Made by a program: the position numbers and the translations under genes
In this document: one piece after another, positions 4,231 to 25,159 of the stretch
How positions within the stretch are numbered: the stretch's first letter is position 1
Layout: each line of letters begins with the position of its first letter
Assembly: GCA_020832445.1 (NCBI GenBank)
Contig: JAFIEO010000061.1
Span: 1 to 45,662, forward strand
DNA from: Paracoccaceae bacterium
GTDB lineage: Bacteria; Pseudomonadota; Alphaproteobacteria; Rhodobacterales; Rhodobacteraceae
Length of the DNA: 45,662 nucleotides
Direction of reading: 5' to 3'
Notes under the pieces: model-generated
What the model was told of the DNA's origin: nothing
The model's input: the letters and a program-made list of their open reading frames with translations, nothing else
The model's database searches: none

Positions 4231-5322
4231 GTGCGCAGTTACATCACAATTGGCCTTTTGGCCCTGGGTGCAAGCCCCGCATTTGCAGGCGGCATTGAAC
4301 GCAACCCGCAATCCATGAACATCTTGTTTCAGGAAGGCAACTATCTGGAAGTTGGCGCAACCTATGGTGCTCCGCGTGTCAGCGGCAACGCACCGGGTGC
4401 GACAGGCAATATTGCGCGTAACTTTTTCACCGGATCAATTGCGTTCAAGGGCGATATCAACGACCAACTGTCCTATGCCCTTATCCTGGACCAGCCTTTT
4501 GGCGCAGATGTGCGCTATCCGACCGGCACAAACGCAACGCTGACAGGCGCAACGGGGAAGGTCAAAAACACCACTCTGACCGGCGTGTTGCGCTATAAGT
4601 TCGGCAACGGTTTCAGCGCACATGCGGGGCTTCGGTCGTCATGGACCAGCGGGGCTGTCGATCTGCCCGCGCTGCAATACACAATGTCCACCAATACGGA
4701 TCAGGCATGGGGCTATCTGGTCGGCGTGGCGTATGAGCAGCCTGAAATCGCCTTGCGTGTGGCACTGACCTATCAGTCTTCTATCAAGCATACATTCAAT
4801 GCGACGGAATCGGGGCCTGCTGCTATCCCGCCTCTTGATCCTGGCAGAAACCAGACGCGTTTCTCAACCAAGATCCCCGAATCCCTGAACCTGGAATTCC
4901 AGACCGGCATCGCCGAAGATACGCTTTTGTTCGGGTCTGTCCGCTGGGTCAAGTGGAAAGACTTTGAGATTGCACCAGAGCAATTCATGGCCTCCCCCCT
5001 GTCTGCAGCGCCATTGGTCGGATATCAAAAGAACTCTGTGGCGTATACATTGGGTGTGGGCCGGCGCTTCAACGAAAACTGGTCCGGTTCTGTTTCGCTG
5101 TCGCATGACACCGGAAATGGCAGCCCGACCAGCAACCTTGGGCCAACTGGCAAGCGCAATTCCATCGGGATTGGCGCGTCCTACACGATGGACAACATGA
5201 CCATCAGTGGCGGCGTGCAATATACCAAACTGGGTAGTGCAACCACTGTGCCAACCATTAATGGCCAGTTCGGCAGCAATTCCGCCATTGGTGCAGGGAT
5301 CCGCGTGGGCTTCAGCTTCTGA
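4231..5322 (+). CDS. Outer membrane protein transport protein (OmpP1/FadL/TodX-like)
   Basis: A 363-aa predicted outer-membrane beta-barrel. A signal peptide at the N-terminus ends SPAFA-G. After it come alternating amphipathic strands (YLEVGATYGAPRV, FSAHAGLRSSW, DTLLFGSVRWVKW, WSGSVSLSHD) and a C-terminal aromatic (RVGFSF), the usual barrel-assembly signal. FadL-family porins carry long-chain fatty acids or other hydrophobic molecules across the outer membrane; the ligand here is unknown. I chose the GTG at 4231 rather than the in-frame ATG at 4213, because AAGGAGGAG lies between them and would be destroyed as a ribosome binding site by the earlier start. At 363 aa it is shorter than E. coli FadL. 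A strong terminator follows. Confidence 0.8.
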   Translation: MRSYITIGLLALGASPAFAGGIERNPQSMNILFQEGNYLEVGATYGAPRVSGNAPGATGNIARNFFTGSIAFKGDINDQLSYALILDQPFGADVRYPTGTNATLTGATGKVKNTTLTGVLRYKFGNGFSAHAGLRSSWTSGAVDLPALQYTMSTNTDQAWGYLVGVAYEQPEIALRVALTYQSSIKHTFNATESGPAAIPPLDPGRNQTRFSTKIPESLNLEFQTGIAEDTLLFGSVRWVKWKDFEIAPEQFMASPLSAAPLVGYQKNSVAYTLGVGRRFNENWSGSVSLSHDTGNGSPTSNLGPTGKRNSIGIGASYTMDNMTISGGVQYTKLGSATTVPTINGQFGSNSAIGAGIRVGFSF

Positions 5323-14072: not shown

Positions 14073-15008
14073 TCACACGGGCGCGCAACGGACACGGGCG
14101 GCGGCAATCAGATCCTGCCCTGCAACGCACAGATGCGCGCCCAGATCGTCAAACCATGTCCCCCCATCCGATGATGCACGGCGCAACAGCGCGATTTGGC
14201 GGAAGGGTTCGGGCTGGCCAAAGCGTTGCAGCACAATGCCCTGCCCGCCCGTCGCCTCGGCGCGCACCGCAAGCTCGGGCAGCAATGTCAGCCCGAACCC
14301 CTGCGCCACCAGCCCGCAAAGCGTGGACAGCGTGGATGCGCCCAGATCAAGCCGCGTCTGGCGCCGGTCAATGGCACAAAAGGCAAGCGCCTGATCGGCC
14401 AGACAATGGCCATCATCCAGCAGTAACAGATGATCGGGGTTCAGCGCGGTCGGGTCCAGCGCATGGTGTCCCTTATCCAGCGCCCCAAGGCGCCCTTCGG
14501 ACCCCGCCAGCACGAACCGGTCCTGAAACAGGGGCGCTATGACCAGATCGGGCGCAGGCACAGGATCGGCCAGCACGACCGCATCCAGCCGCCCCGCGCG
14601 CAGCCCCGACAGCAGGTCGCTGGTCTGCGCCTCGCGCAGGCGCAGGTCGCGCGTAATGTCACCCGCACGCAGCCGCGCAAGGGTTCCGGGCAACAGATAT
14701 GGCGCGATCGTGGGGATCATGCCCAGCGTCAGCGTAGCCTGCAACCCCTGCCGCCGCGCCGAGGTTTCCAGTTCCATCGTTTCGGACAGAATACGTTCTG
14801 CACGCGCCAGAACATCACGCCCCGCCCGCGTCAGGCGCACATCACGCGGCAACCGTTCCACCAGCGCCACGCCAAGAATGCCCTCCAGTTCCTTGATCTG
14901 CATCGACAGGGCCGGCTGCGTGACATTCACAAGCTCCGCCGCGCGCCCGAAATTATGCGCCTGCGCAAGGGCACGGAAATAGGCAAGCTGTTTCAAGGTA
15001 ACTTTCAT
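14073..15008 (-). CDS. oxyR: LysR-family peroxide sensor OxyR
   Basis: A 311-aa LysR regulator with an N-terminal winged helix-turn-helix (LKQLAYFRALAQAHNFGRAAE, then TQPALSMQIKELE). The effector domain contains DDGHCLADQALAFC, so Cys202 and Cys211 are nine residues apart exactly as in E. coli OxyR Cys199 and Cys208, which form the peroxide-sensing disulfide. I therefore call OxyR rather than a generic LysR protein. OxyR activates catalase, peroxidase and iron-control genes. None of these is adjacent: the upstream 350 bp hold only the palindromic repeat element, and the next gene is mfd. Confidence 0.9.
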   Translation of the reverse strand: MKVTLKQLAYFRALAQAHNFGRAAELVNVTQPALSMQIKELEGILGVALVERLPRDVRLTRAGRDVLARAERILSETMELETSARRQGLQATLTLGMIPTIAPYLLPGTLARLRAGDITRDLRLREAQTSDLLSGLRAGRLDAVVLADPVPAPDLVIAPLFQDRFVLAGSEGRLGALDKGHHALDPTALNPDHLLLLDDGHCLADQALAFCAIDRRQTRLDLGASTLSTLCGLVAQGFGLTLLPELAVRAEATGGQGIVLQRFGQPEPFRQIALLRRASSDGGTWFDDLGAHLCVAGQDLIAAARVRCAPV

Positions 15009-15110
15009 AAGGCAGTCTTATCAAAAATGCCCAAAGATTGCCAAGTGTTCTGATTGCCGCACCACACTTTTCCTTATGGTGGTGTCATGCCAGATGGGAT
15101 CGTAGGGCGG

Positions 15111-15345
15111 GTTAATTCCGGCCTGCAGCAGTCGCCCAAGGCGCGGAGCAAAGGGCGCAGCCCGCCGCGCCATCGGCGGGCCGTCCCGCGGCCTGCCGAT
15201 GACCTGATGTCAGTTCAAGCATTTGAACGCAGAAGTATGCAGCCTGCATAAAGTGCATCCCTTGAACGCCGGATCGGCAGACCCCGGCCCGCCGATAGCG
15301 CGGGCTTTATCCAAGCGCGCACATCCCCGACAGGCCCCCCCTGAT
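15111..15345. repeat. Copy A of a large palindromic MITE-like element
   Basis: This copy fills most of the 351-bp gap between oxyR and mfd. It starts with GTTAATTCCGGCCTGCAGC (15111-15129), then CAAGGCGCGGAGCAAAGGG (15137-15155). Next come a left arm (15159-15200), a 72-base loop and a right arm (15273-15307) that pairs imperfectly with the left one: GCCCGC, TCGGCGGGCC and CTGCCGAT are mirrored. Inside the loop are GTTCAA-gcat-TTGAAC (about 15212-15227) and TATGC-agcct-GCATA (15236-15250). The arms, the inner hairpin and the flanking word recur in inverted orientation at 24391-24602. No coding frame fits. I read it as a non-autonomous mobile element or structured-RNA repeat. Confidence 0.8.
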
Positions 15346-15359
15346 GCGCCAAACAAATT

Positions 15360-18300
15360 CTAGCGCTTCGCATCCGCCTTCACCGCCAGATCACGCGCAA
15401 TGGCAAAGGCACCGCGCACGCGCTCTTTTTCAGTGCTCCAGTCGCGGCGCACGACAATCTTGTTGTCGCGCACCTTTGCCAGTCCCTGCTGGTCGTTCAC
15501 GAATTCCACCAACCCTGCCGGATTGGCGAATTTGTCGTTGTGGAACTGGATTGTCGCGCCCTTTGGCCCTGCGTCCAGTTTGGCGATGCCTGCGCGTTTG
15601 CATTCGGCCTTGATCCGCATGACCACCAGAAGCGTGTTCACTTCGCGCGGCAGCTTGCCAAAGCGGTCAATCAGTTCGGCAGCGAACCCTTCCAGATCGA
15701 CCTTGTTGGTCAGCCCCGACAAGCGCCGATACAGCCCCAAGCGCACATCCAGATCGGGCACATAGTCATCGGGTATCAGCACCGGCACGCCCAGATTGAT
15801 TTGCGGCGCCCATTGCCCGTCCAGATCGGATACATCCGCAATCTCGCCCGAGCGTATCTTGGCAATCGTGTCTTCCAGCATCTGCTGGTACAACTCATAG
15901 CCCACTTCGTTGATATGGCCGGATTGTTCTTCGCCCAGAATGTTGCCCGCGCCGCGCAAATCCATGTCATGGCTGGCAAGGTTGAACCCCGCCCCAAGGC
16001 TATCCAGACTTGCCAGCAGGCGCAAACGTTTCTGGGCCTGCGGGGTCAGCGGCGCGCGGGGTTTCGTGGTCAGGAAACAATAGGCCCGCGTTTTGGCCCG
16101 CCCGACGCGCCCGCGTATCTGATACAGCTGCGACAACCCGAACATATCGGCACGGTGCACAATCATCGTATTGGCGCGCGGAATATCAAGGCCGGATTCA
16201 ACAATGCTGGTGGCGACCAGAACATCATATTTGCCATCATAAAACGCATTCATCCGCTCATCCAGATCGCCCGCCGCCATCTGGCCATTGGCGGTGACAT
16301 AGGTGATTTCAGGCACCTGATTGCGCAGGAAATCCTCAACCTCGGGCAGGTCGGAAATCCGCGGCACCACAAAGAACGACTGCCCGCCGCGATAATGTTC
16401 GCGCAACAGCGCCTCGCGCAGGGTGACAGTGTCGAATTCGCTGACATAGGTGCGGATGGCCAGCCGGTCCACAGGTGGGGTCTGGATGATGGACAGATCG
16501 CGCACCCCTGTCAGTGACAGTTGCAAGGTGCGCGGGATGGGCGTTGCGGTCAGTGTCAGCACATGAATATCGCTGCGCAATTCCTTCAGGCGTTCCTTAT
16601 GGCTGACACCGAAATGCTGTTCTTCGTCAATGACCAACAGGCCCAGATTGGCGAATTTCACACCCTTGGCCAGCAGCGCATGGGTGCCTATGCAAATATC
16701 GACTGTGCCCTTGGCCAGCCCGTCGCGGGTGGCGTTGGCATCCTTGACGGATACGAAACGCGACAGCGGCCTGACCACGACCGGCAGACCACGGAAGCGG
16801 TCCGAAAATGTCTTGAAATGCTGGCGCGCCAGCAGCGTGGTCGGTGCGATGACAGCCACCTGCACCCCTGACATGGCCGCGATAAAGGCCGCGCGCATGG
16901 CGACTTCGGTTTTGCCGAACCCCACATCGCCCACCACCAGCCGGTCCATGGGGCGGCCGCTTTCAAAATCATCCAGCACATCTTCGATGGCGCGCAACTG
17001 GTCATCGGTTTCGGCATAGGGGAAGCGGGCCAGAAATTCGTCCCACATGCCTTCGGGCGGGCTGAACTGTGGCGCGCTGCGCAACTGGCGTTCGGCCGCA
17101 ATGCGGATCAGCTTGTCTGCAATCTCGCGGATGCGCTGTTTCAGTCGCGCTTTCTTGGCCTGCCATGCGCCACCGCCCAGCTTGTCCAGCAACCCTTCTT
17201 CATGGCCATAGCGCGACAGAAGTTCGATATTTTCCACCGGCAGGAACAACCGGTCCCCGCCTGCATACTCCAGCGCAATGCATTCATGCGGCGCGCCCAT
17301 CGCCGTGATCGTCTCTAACCCCGTATAGCGGCCCACCCCATGATCGACATGCACGATCAGGTCACCGGGCGACAGGCTTTGCGCTTCGGTCAGAAAGTTT
17401 TCTGCCCGCTTGCGCCGCTTTGCGCGCCCGACCAGCCGTTCGCCCAACACATCCTGTTCGGAAATCACGGTCAGGTCCGGCGTCTGAAAGCCCTGATCCA
17501 ACGGCCAGACAGTCAGGAACAAGCGCCCCTTCGGGCCTGTGCCCATGTCGCGCGCCGTGGTGATATTCTGCGCGCCCTTGGCACCGTGATCGTCCAGCAA
17601 GCCCGACAGCCGTTCGCGCGCGCCTTCTGAATGGCTGGCAATCACCACATCGCCATGCGCGCGCCGGTCATTGACATGCGCGGCCAGCGCATCGAACACA
17701 TTGGCTTCGGCCTGCCGTTCGGGGGCAAAGCTGCGCCCCATGCGCCCGCCTGCATCCAGAACCCCCGGCCCCGGTGCGGTTTTTGTCGGCTGCAACTGGA
17801 TCACCCGCCGGCCGGACAGCGCCTGCATCCATGCCGCTTCATTCAGATACAGCTGTTCAGGGGGGCAAGGCTTATAGATTGTGTCCAAACGCTTGCGGTC
17901 TGCCATTGCCTCGCGTCGGGCATCATATTGGTCGGCGATCCCGTCCCAGCGCGAAATGCGCGCGGCCACAATCTGGTCGTCCAGCATGATGGACGCGTCT
18001 GGCAGGTAGTCAAACAGCGTTTCCATGCGGGCATGGAAGAAGGGCAGCCAATGTTCCATCCCCTGATGTTTGCGCCCTGCGCTGACGGCTTCATACAGCG
18101 GGTCGTCACTGCCGGCTGCGCCAAATTCGATACGGTAATTCTGCCGGAACCGCGTGATCGCGGCGTCATCCAGAATGATCTCGGACACGGGCGCAAATTC
18201 CACCACATCCAGCTTTTCCAGACTGCGCTGGGTGGCCGGATCAAAACGGCGCGCGGCGTCCAGCACATCACCAAACATGTCCAGCCGCACTGGTCCCAGA

Positions 18301-18830
18301 TCACCGGGCGGGTAAATGTCGATAATGCCGCCACGAATGGCGTAATCCCCCGGTTCGGTAACCGTGGGGGCCTGCGTGAAGCCCATGCGCACCAGCCAGC
18401 CGCGCAACGCCCCCTCGTCAATGCGCCGCCCGACCTGCGCGACAAAGGATGCGCCCGCCACAACATCGCGCGCGGGCACGGCCTGCATGGCCGCAGATAG
18501 CGTGGCCAACACCACAAACGGCCCCGGCACACCATGGGCCAGCGCCGCCAGCGTGGCCATACGCGCGCTGGACACATCAGCATTGGGGGACACACGGTCA
18601 AAGGGCAGACAATCCCATGCGGGGAATCGCAGAACCGTGATTTCAGGCGCAAAGAATGTCAGCGCGCGGGCCATCGCCTCGGCGCGTTTGTCGTCGCGTG
18701 CGACATGCAGCAGCGGCGCGCCGGATTTGTCCAGCTCGCGTGCCAGCAGTGCTGCATCAAAACCTTCGGGCGCACCGCCCAGAGTGATCCGGGAATGGGC
18801 CAGCGGAATTTGAGAATTAGACTGTGTCAT
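15360..18830 (-). CDS. mfd: Transcription-repair coupling factor
   Basis: An 1156-aa Mfd, an ATP-driven translocase that displaces stalled RNA polymerase and recruits UvrA. The N-terminal UvrB-like region covers about residues 1-470. The RNA-polymerase-interaction domain follows around 490-560 (SPGDLIVHVDHGVGRYTG). The helicase core has Walker A GDVGFGKTEVA near residue 633 and the DEEQ box near 735, then the RecG-like motor and the C-terminal TRCF domain. Length and order are canonical. I chose the ATG at 18830, seven codons inside the longest frame, because its N-terminus fits better; neither site has a strong Shine-Dalgarno. The 58 bp upstream separate it from the same-strand membrane-protein gene. 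Confidence 0.96.
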   Translation of the reverse strand: MTQSNSQIPLAHSRITLGGAPEGFDAALLARELDKSGAPLLHVARDDKRAEAMARALTFFAPEITVLRFPAWDCLPFDRVSPNADVSSARMATLAALAHGVPGPFVVLATLSAAMQAVPARDVVAGASFVAQVGRRIDEGALRGWLVRMGFTQAPTVTEPGDYAIRGGIIDIYPPGDLGPVRLDMFGDVLDAARRFDPATQRSLEKLDVVEFAPVSEIILDDAAITRFRQNYRIEFGAAGSDDPLYEAVSAGRKHQGMEHWLPFFHARMETLFDYLPDASIMLDDQIVAARISRWDGIADQYDARREAMADRKRLDTIYKPCPPEQLYLNEAAWMQALSGRRVIQLQPTKTAPGPGVLDAGGRMGRSFAPERQAEANVFDALAAHVNDRRAHGDVVIASHSEGARERLSGLLDDHGAKGAQNITTARDMGTGPKGRLFLTVWPLDQGFQTPDLTVISEQDVLGERLVGRAKRRKRAENFLTEAQSLSPGDLIVHVDHGVGRYTGLETITAMGAPHECIALEYAGGDRLFLPVENIELLSRYGHEEGLLDKLGGGAWQAKKARLKQRIREIADKLIRIAAERQLRSAPQFSPPEGMWDEFLARFPYAETDDQLRAIEDVLDDFESGRPMDRLVVGDVGFGKTEVAMRAAFIAAMSGVQVAVIAPTTLLARQHFKTFSDRFRGLPVVVRPLSRFVSVKDANATRDGLAKGTVDICIGTHALLAKGVKFANLGLLVIDEEQHFGVSHKERLKELRSDIHVLTLTATPIPRTLQLSLTGVRDLSIIQTPPVDRLAIRTYVSEFDTVTLREALLREHYRGGQSFFVVPRISDLPEVEDFLRNQVPEITYVTANGQMAAGDLDERMNAFYDGKYDVLVATSIVESGLDIPRANTMIVHRADMFGLSQLYQIRGRVGRAKTRAYCFLTTKPRAPLTPQAQKRLRLLASLDSLGAGFNLASHDMDLRGAGNILGEEQSGHINEVGYELYQQMLEDTIAKIRSGEIADVSDLDGQWAPQINLGVPVLIPDDYVPDLDVRLGLYRRLSGLTNKVDLEGFAAELIDRFGKLPREVNTLLVVMRIKAECKRAGIAKLDAGPKGATIQFHNDKFANPAGLVEFVNDQQGLAKVRDNKIVVRRDWSTEKERVRGAFAIARDLAVKADAKR

Positions 18831-18888
18831 CGCGCCTGACCTACCCCGCAATGATCCGGTGTCAATGCCTGAAATCCGTCCAATGCCG

Positions 18889-24116: not shown

Positions 24117-24281
24117 ATGAGCACGCTTCTAACCCGCATCCAGACCCGCCTGCGCCAGCGCGCAGCCTATGCCCGCACCGTGACCGAAATCCGCAATATG
24201 CCGCTGGATGTCGCCATCGATCTGGACATCCACAAACCCGACGCGCGCAAGATTGCCGCGCAAGCCGTTTACGGACAATAA
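24117..24281 (+). CDS. Small DUF1127-like protein
   Basis: A 54-aa basic protein: an Arg-rich N-terminal helix (RIQTRLRQRAAYARTVTEIR), a central NMPLDVAIDLDIHK and a C-terminal ARKIAAQAVYG. The layout matches DUF1127 small proteins of alphaproteobacteria, whose consensus is an Arg-rich helix, then LS-x-x-x-L-x-DLGI, then IA-x-x-A-x-YG. Some DUF1127 proteins bind RNA and affect sRNA processing or turnover and stress or phosphate responses. A strong AAAAGGAG lies 6 bases before the ATG. A hairpin (CAGCGTTT 24306-24313 with AAACGCTG 24335-24342) follows 25 bp after the stop, and copy B of the palindromic repeat 110 bp after it. Confidence 0.75.
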   Translation: MSTLLTRIQTRLRQRAAYARTVTEIRNMPLDVAIDLDIHKPDARKIAAQAVYGQ

Positions 24282-24390
24282 GCGCCCCTTCCCGCACGCA
24301 AGCTCCAGCGTTTCGATCTGTCGTTCAGTCGGAAAAACGCTGTAGCTTATGGGTTTTCGCAATCTCAAACCCAAAAAGTAAGCAAGGCTT

Positions 24391-24602
24391 GTTAATTCTG
24401 GCCTGAAGCTGCCCCTCACACCTGGATGAAGCCCGCGCCAGCGGTGGGCCGGGGTCTGCCGATCCGACATTATAAGAATGCAGTTTATGCGGGCTGCATA
24501 CCCCTTACTTCTATGGCTTGGCATGTCGCTGGCCAAATCGGCAGGCCGCGGGACGGCCAGACCTATGGCGCGGCGGGCTTCGCCCTTTGCTCCGCGCCTT
24601 GG
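24391..24602. repeat. Copy B of the large palindromic MITE-like element, inverted
   Basis: This copy lies in the 383-bp gap between the DUF1127-like gene and coaD, in opposite orientation to copy A. The left arm (24428-24463) and right arm (24537-24582) mirror each other imperfectly. Words shared with copy A after reversing include GGATCGGCAGACCCCGGCCC, GTCCCGCGGCCTGCCGAT and CAAGGCGCGGAGCAAAGGG (24583-24601). The inner hairpin TATGC-agccc-GCATA is kept. The 19-bp end word GTTAATTCTGGCCTGAAGC (24391-24409) sits at the end opposite to that in copy A when cores are aligned, as expected if the intact element has terminal inverted repeats. Confidence 0.8.
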
Positions 24603-24664
24603 TAATCTCCAACGTCCCCGTTGCCCCTCTCAACCGGACGTTTTCACCTGATCTGACCCATGCC

Positions 24665-25159
24665 CTAGCGCGGATATTTCGCACCCAGCGCTTCGGTAAT
24701 GGCGGGGGATACGAAATTCGACACGTCGCCGCCCAGCCGCGCTATTTCCTTGACCAGTTTGGATGCAATCGCCTGATGGCGGGCCTCTGCCATAAGAAAT
24801 ACGGTTTCGATACTGGCATCCATGGCGCGGTTCATGCCGACCATCTGGAATTCATACTCAAAATCCGTCACCGCGCGCAATCCGCGTATGATGATCTGTG
24901 CGCCCACATCACGCGCGCAGTCAATCAGCAGGTTCTCGAACGGGTGGGCGATAATCTCGACCCCGGTGTGCACACTCAGCGTCTGCACCTCGGCCTCGAT
25001 CATGGCGACACGTTCTTCCAGCGTGAATAGCGGGCCTTTGTCGCGGTTTATCGCAACACCTATCACCAAACGGTCCACAAGCTGCGTCGCGCGGGTGATA
25101 ATATCGATATGACCCTTGGTCAAAGGGTCAAAAGTTCCTGGATAAAGACCGATCCGCAT
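24665..25159 (-). CDS. coaD: Phosphopantetheine adenylyltransferase
   Basis: A 164-aa nucleotidyltransferase that makes dephospho-CoA from 4'-phosphopantetheine and ATP. LYPGTFDPLTKGHIDII holds the TxGH motif near residue 15-18. RGLRAVTDFEYEFQM and the C-terminal VSNFVSPAIT are family signatures. Length is canonical and AAGGGGG precedes the ATG. A same-strand CBS-domain gene ends 80 bp upstream. Confidence 0.97.
   Translation of the reverse strand: MRIGLYPGTFDPLTKGHIDIITRATQLVDRLVIGVAINRDKGPLFTLEERVAMIEAEVQTLSVHTGVEIIAHPFENLLIDCARDVGAQIIIRGLRAVTDFEYEFQMVGMNRAMDASIETVFLMAEARHQAIASKLVKEIARLGGDVSNFVSPAITEALGAKYPR

Follow-up and report, generated by a model that had tools for sequence, protein, structure and literature searches.

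A structured intergenic repeat of Rhodobacteraceae with differing occupants, in either orientation, at sites shared between species

Two copies of a dispersed repeat in the window

The window analysed here is a 45,662-nucleotide contig of a Paracoccaceae bacterium (the host genome) and contains two copies of a dispersed repeat. Copy A (conserved unit ~15120-15336, + strand) is flanked by a LysR-type regulator gene (14073-15008, -), whose 5' end faces it, and by mfd (15360-18851, -), which turns its 3' end towards it. Copy B (conserved unit ~24400-24623, -) lies between a 54-aa ORF (24117-24281, +), which from its look we take to be DUF1127-like, and the 3' end of coaD (24665-25159, -); in both copies the outer arms are additional to the unit. 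A sequence-only reading of this DNA had placed two blocks here that share a series of words in opposite orientation, and both the positions and the shared words are as it described.

Outer arm alpha of copy A, GTGTCATG..GGTTAATTCC (15082-15119, +), fits the alpha consensus of other copies. The adjoining cassette (15120-15336, +, including the GGCC that bounds it on both sides) contains a small side hairpin, P1/P2, of the form GCGCGG..GGGC GCA GCCC..CCGCGC (15141-15170, +), which covaries among copies (e.g., GGGC/GCCC to GGCC/GGCC). The left strand of the main hairpin (15172-15200, +) comprises helix P3, a conserved internal loop and helix P4, and holds a 22-base core (15179-15200, +). It is followed by a variable loop with a conserved GCATAAA (15201-15272, +), which together with part of the right arm lacks a counterpart at the same site in Roseinatronobacter sp. 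S2 (S2), and by the right strand, ATCGGCA GACCC CGGCCCGCCGAT (15273-15296, +), beyond which the inverted repeat extends to 15303. The outer arm beta position (15337-15359, +) is decayed in copy A and recognisable in S2, where it reads GGCCAGCACCACCCAACCGGATGC. Copy B has a shortened outer arm alpha, GCAAGGCTTGTTAATTCT (24382-24399, +), a cassette turned relative to alpha and beta (24400-24623, -, with GGCC at 24400-24403 and a degenerate far end) whose 22-base core is at 24537-24558 (-), and an outer arm beta (24630-24659, -) that reads GGGTCAGATCAGGTGAAAACGTCCGGTTGA as the reverse complement.

Both sites read alpha-cassette-beta on the + strand with no half missing, which contradicts the earlier proposal that each copy had lost one end. 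The end word on which that proposal was built does exist and flanks the two cores on opposite sides, because the cassette is in + orientation in A and in - orientation in B between arms of the same order; as we read the sequence, the word is outer arm alpha plus the terminal repeat. The blocks had also been said to have no open frame. This holds for copy A in that no ORF of ≥100 aa overlaps its cassette, but mechanical ORFs of 57-170 aa overlap copy B; judged by their pattern, the indels and substitutions among copies do not look like those of coding sequence.

That the blocks belong to a dispersed family was borne out by the test proposed for it: the 22-base core common to both, GGCCGTCCCGCGGCCTGCCGAT, has 116 matches (65 + 51) in the host genome at ≤3 mismatches, and the reversed core, used as a control, has none. 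A BLAST search of the same genome scored 40 places. Within the genus the core is unevenly represented, with 116 matches in the host genome, 117 in the HJB301 draft, 115 in S2, 13 in Roseibaca sp. Y0-43, nine and six in two further genomes (G018 and G014) and 0-3 in each of the other 30; among the matches listed, copies are borne by Roseinatronobacter, Roseibaca and two MAGs. A covariance model was run on 149 Rhodobacteraceae genomes, the host among them and each genus represented once, with 18 candidates scored per genome under strict filters; 60 of these genomes have the family. One of these, G069, the single genome of its genus, had 31 matches under fuller scoring. Versions of the unit with different sequence occur in other Rhodobacteraceae and on Pseudosulfitobacter and Salipiger plasmids; in low-copy genomes, the neighbours of 12 copies (10 genomes) were read as unnamed ORFs only. 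Rfam gave no match at gathering score on the window (the best of seven loci had an E value of 0.77, below gathering), and exact matching to IMG/VR returned nothing, so a viral origin was set aside. At least 11 contigs of the host draft have a copy at one end (C4, C5, C6, C25, C50, C74, C89, C91, C92, C95 and C96); the family evidently breaks this 99-contig draft assembly.

The terminal repeats are of two types, GGCCTTTTGC and GGCCTGAAG, either of which can stand at either end, so that the cassette carries terminal inverted repeats (GGCCTTTTGC.. or GGCCTGAAG.. at its ends), as had been suspected. Outside them, 37% of 330 flanks bear remnants of either alpha or beta, two dissimilar arms; the thresholds are each passed by ~2% of shuffles, and the arm consensus was built from the same copies. 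Where both arms were recognised in the host genome and S2, they lay on opposite sides in 27 cases, with no alpha-alpha and one beta-beta case, and the orientation of the cassette between opposite-side arms was 16:11. At 57 alpha/beta sites, in loci mostly selected for bearing copies, a core lay ≤420 bases on in 56 and a deleted "solo" copy in one.

The long form, with 106-117 bases from core to right arm, accounts for 97 of 103 host copies and 91 of 100 S2 copies; a short form without ~97 bp is represented by one and three copies, respectively, and our script left five and six unclassed. In a "solo" copy of HJB301 (L049, ~4737-4950), the outer parts are joined at a single GGCGCGG and the inside is gone. 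Pseudosulfitobacter plasmids, of which there are many records of nearly equal length, have at one RepB-side site (~2490-2680) a full copy or a copy without most of the loop (L310 and L314). From their sequences, the short and solo forms are read as deletions between direct repeats of CCGAT or GGCGCGG. A second repeat family of ~105 bp, TAGAGCATATCACGTTCATTCGCATTCACGAG..AACCGGTTCCCACTTTTGAGCAACATGCTCTA, is inserted in or next to some copies (L226, L138, L013 and L181), and at the first three of these loci one of the two species has it and the other does not.

A conserved hairpin and its gene context

Covariation shows a predicted hairpin of nearly fixed length that is kept by compensatory changes across genera. 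The family unit, ~180 bases long, folds mainly into helices of 12 and 7 bp, with a conserved asymmetric internal loop between them and a variable loop with ATAAA, plus the small side hairpin. The distance from the start of the core to the end of the right arm is 111-113 bases in 51 copies from other Rhodobacteraceae and plasmids, leaving aside two short forms that were not found. The inner motif GTATGCAGCC..GCATAAA, earlier described as conserved, is so within Roseinatronobacter, but across genera the invariant part shrinks to ATAAA. In a 45-sequence alignment, 98.5% of 1170 cells were paired and double changes occurred at 9 of 26 pairs; covariation reached 48 cells against a shuffle mean of 10.3, a value attained by none of 500 shuffles, and the number of further pair types was attained by 3 of 500. 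In 25 more diverse sequences, 94.1% of 708 cells were paired and 16 of 29 pairs covaried (61 cells against 17.3 in shuffles, attained by 0 of 500). The structures were drawn from the sequences scored, and are favoured for that reason in slid controls.

Mismatches hint at which strand is read as RNA. In the scored helices, the + strand had 147 A-C against 23 G-T mismatches (184 copies from two genomes, which are not independent), and in 52 sequences from other genomes the ratio was 33:6, with 18 of the 33 A-C in two doubtful pairs; side helix P1 ran opposite to the other helices, at 1:9. The A-C excess over G-T hints, without proving it, that the functional RNA may come from the strand opposite to +. 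The consensus behind the hairpin has no T run.

Copies lie mostly behind genes. A simple ORF rule scored 190 of the 203 copies, which come from two related, non-independent genomes: 126 were in convergent, 47 in codirectional and 9 in divergent gaps, and 8 were incomplete. The convergent share was thus 126 of 182, against 37 of 161 element-free gaps in 16 S2 stretches, where codirectional (81) and divergent (43) gaps made up the rest. A gene end was faced by 307 of 372 sides, at a median distance of 37 bp, and 6 of 190 copies were flagged as lying inside a long ORF. On annotated plasmid records, copies were convergent at L248, L249, L250, L310 (the same site as L314), L313 and L315, and codirectional at L247, L311 and L312. 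In the wide sense, the family is therefore REP-like, a high-copy extragenic palindrome at gene 3' ends.

Occupants of shared sites in two species

Comparing the same address in two species shows directly whether the occupant has changed, in which orientation, and where the change begins and ends. Host copies were matched to S2 by their flanks, which are ~95% identical at shared sites; both flanks found a counterpart at 64 sites, and a single flank did at 23. Identity between occupants was two-humped: 26 pairs were at ≥0.891, all in the same orientation and none inverted, and 38 were at ≤0.871, of which 14 had the same orientation and 24 were inverted. Orientation was strongly associated with identity class (Fisher p 4e-8), and among the 38 low pairs it was consistent with an even split (p 0.14). 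A plain in-place inversion was rejected, because no inverted pair exceeded 0.871 while 26 same-orientation pairs reached at least 0.891. Inverted pairs (22 of 61 measured) had a mean identity of 0.82, against 0.806 for random host/S2 pairs (n 1455). Three of the 38 low pairs are not clean replacements, since at copy A and L180 one form is long and the other short, and the copy at L158 is truncated. Copy A in S2 has kept its outer parts, lost the loop between the CCGAT repeats and differs in three adjacent side-hairpin bases; copy B in S2 is inverted and different (element identity 0.832). That occupants at shared sites may be kept, replaced or flipped argues that the addresses are old and that their contents have been replaced without regard to orientation.

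Recombination between strains, bringing in alleles with different occupants and involving no exchange inside one genome, would explain why donors are missing (see below). It would equally shift the origin of the different occupants elsewhere, and flank identity is alike at kept, same-orientation low and inverted sites (95.7, 95.9 and 95.4%); we regard it as improbable. For the host copies L022 and L012 (against L200 and L228), the left and right flanks correspond to separate places in S2, a pattern that either a rearrangement between copies or a wrong join would leave.

Wrong or flipped repeats in the 99-contig draft are a concern given the contigs that end at copies. Third-species orientations argue against such an artefact: the HJB301 draft shares the host orientation against S2 at three sites, Y0-43 shares that of S2 against the host at one, and at two sites both are inverted relative to HJB301. 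In a tally from 26 third-species matches, S2 itself was inverted at 7 of 11 distinct sites and the host at 3 of 8. The inverted occupants are, moreover, different sequences rather than S2 copies turned round, and assembly error is very improbable as the explanation.

The end points of change bear on how occupants are replaced. At L144, a same-orientation low pair, the change begins at GGCC on both sides; at L138/L209, both outer parts are kept and the difference lies inside only, a partial exchange. Beyond GGCC, site-specific identity was slightly above that of permuted pairs (20 of 30 sides usable), and retention of the terminal repeat was weak (p 0.24 for same-orientation pairs, 14 sides; p 0.03 for inverted pairs, 6 sides).

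A MITE-like element moved in trans by a transposase, excised and re-entering the same GGCC-bounded place in either orientation, would fit the terminal inverted repeats, the GGCC at both ends, the use of both orientations and, where the two repeats are of unlike type, a change that starts at GGCC. It would also fit three sites at which more distant species have no element. Two of these are in HJB301, facing L098 and one L198 copy; the third, in Y0-43, corresponds to copy B and has 21 bases between its matched flanks. From these three we conclude that, over a longer time span, sites arise or disappear; flank identity there (72-87%) is too low for a target duplication to be read. Against such movement, none of the 64 shared sites is cleanly empty, a count biased because the S2 stretches were first chosen for holding copies. 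When 20 partnerless host copies were compared with 16 syntenic S2 stretches, ten sites were scorable and ten were not; the scorable ones held eight elements (five long in the same orientation, two long and inverted, one short with an unreliable orientation call) and two deleted remnants, and none was empty. A pattern for the empty alpha-beta junction gave eight matches in six genomes, all at 3 mismatches, and no gene lay between the arms in any of 192 classed copies, as an autonomous form would have. Y1_Tnp (PF01797, RAYT) had no match in the host genome, against matches in 5 of 14 genomes as a control. An odd terminal repeat, GGCGTATTGC, persists at its site through replacement (L131/L221). 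We consider this explanation rather unlikely.

Exchange between copies and comparison with known repeats

The copies are mosaic. Linkage between variable columns is lost within ~20 bp: mean r2 is 0.197 at 0-9 bp, 0.036 at 10-19 bp and 0.007-0.010 beyond 60 bp (185 copies, 59 variable columns), a decay to which repeated mutation could contribute. Clear donors are rare, with 8 of 8466 within-genome pairs at ≥0.95 identity. The nearest neighbours of replaced copies are no more similar to them (medians 0.896 and 0.884) than those of kept copies (0.885). The longest exact within-genome matches of replaced copies are barely longer: they measure 88-120 bp in 6 of 37, but reach 94 in kept ones (medians 63 and 64). 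Recent conversion from a single donor is supported neither by these identities nor by the match lengths. Exchange between copies appears to be the best reading of the mosaic, with a replacing sequence that is usually not traceable.

A dedicated recombinase exchanging cassettes blindly to orientation at fixed addresses, via their palindromic GGCC ends, would account together for the flips and for the change of content that always accompanies them. No reciprocal exchange was seen, however: the best match elsewhere in S2 had a median of 0.89 for replaced copies versus 0.958 for kept ones (long-form copies among 100 S2 copies), and swapping between sites was rejected because none of the S2 copies compared was a close relative standing at a different address. 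The candidate-enzyme searches covered Y1_Tnp and SbcD only, and we hold such an enzyme to be unlikely. SbcD had no match above the curated cut-off in three of three genomes, the matches below it being mainly to an N-terminal piece; the only one in the host genome is of this kind (C65:52951-53247). An SbcCD hairpin-cutting trigger is therefore not supported, and the reduced SbcD match might be linked to tolerance of hairpins.

The account to which we give somewhat better than even credence is that of a structured intergenic repeat of Rhodobacteraceae whose copies are exchanged, blind to orientation, at long-lived addresses and which has a role at the RNA level at 3' ends; the exchange step and the function are what we infer in it. 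Copies would exchange sequence non-reciprocally, either in a manner like gene conversion or through template switching at the hairpin. With inverted repeats on both sides of the cassette, exchange would be blind to left and right and would often flip it, refreshing the inner cassette while the outer arms and flanks remain with the site and decay. Ending in inverted repeats of 4-18 bp is not expected of a RecA-type exchange, a point against that route. By analogy with REP and BIME, the hairpin may act in the 3' part of transcripts, protecting mRNA 3' ends or insulating convergent genes. We read the family as a REP-like structured repeat, with a probable action as RNA behind genes. A bolder version, in which a trans-acting, orientation-blind system replaces and remixes a structured-RNA cassette at more than 100 fixed addresses, the contents forming one shuffled pool while the sites stay static, seems to us doubtful. 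A working covariance model for a structured Rhodobacteraceae repeat absent from Rfam should be useful for annotation, and also for enquiring into the role of a hairpin placed between convergent genes.

The literature searched contained no description of the family, in keeping with the initial view of it as undescribed, which does not prove its absence from print. The available portions of PMC12306157, PMC4666352, PMC8049555, PMC3116915 and PMC3733652 describe neither the family nor orientation-blind replacement at fixed sites, and the term Rhodobac- does not occur in the available portion of the first.

Closest in kind are REP, REPIN and MITE elements. Among alphaproteobacterial palindromic mosaics are the RIME and ABC intergenic mosaic elements of Rhizobiales, to which we liken the family by description only. 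Like REP/BIME and REPIN-RAYT elements, it consists of high-copy extragenic palindromes between convergent genes; GTAG and CGTC REPs, as far as the available text describes them, lie mainly between unidirectional and convergent genes (PMC3733652). Unlike the two inverted 20-40 bp REPs of a REPIN, the family has a structured core of ~180 bases, one long hairpin with an internal loop and a side hairpin, and its host genome is without a Y1/RAYT transposase. With bacterial MITEs it shares short length, dispersal, terminal inverted repeats and the lack of an internal gene (PMC10969869). It differs from them in that neither a target duplication nor a partner transposase was found, and in that its compensatory base changes between genera indicate selection on a structure. 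Where it departs from REP and REPIN elements is that its cassette is replaced in either orientation at fixed sites. The evolution of REP by gene conversion was reportedly already posed as a question in the title of a 1988 review by Higgins; with conversion of palindromes a question since then, what is new here is the replacement of occupants at fixed sites in either orientation.
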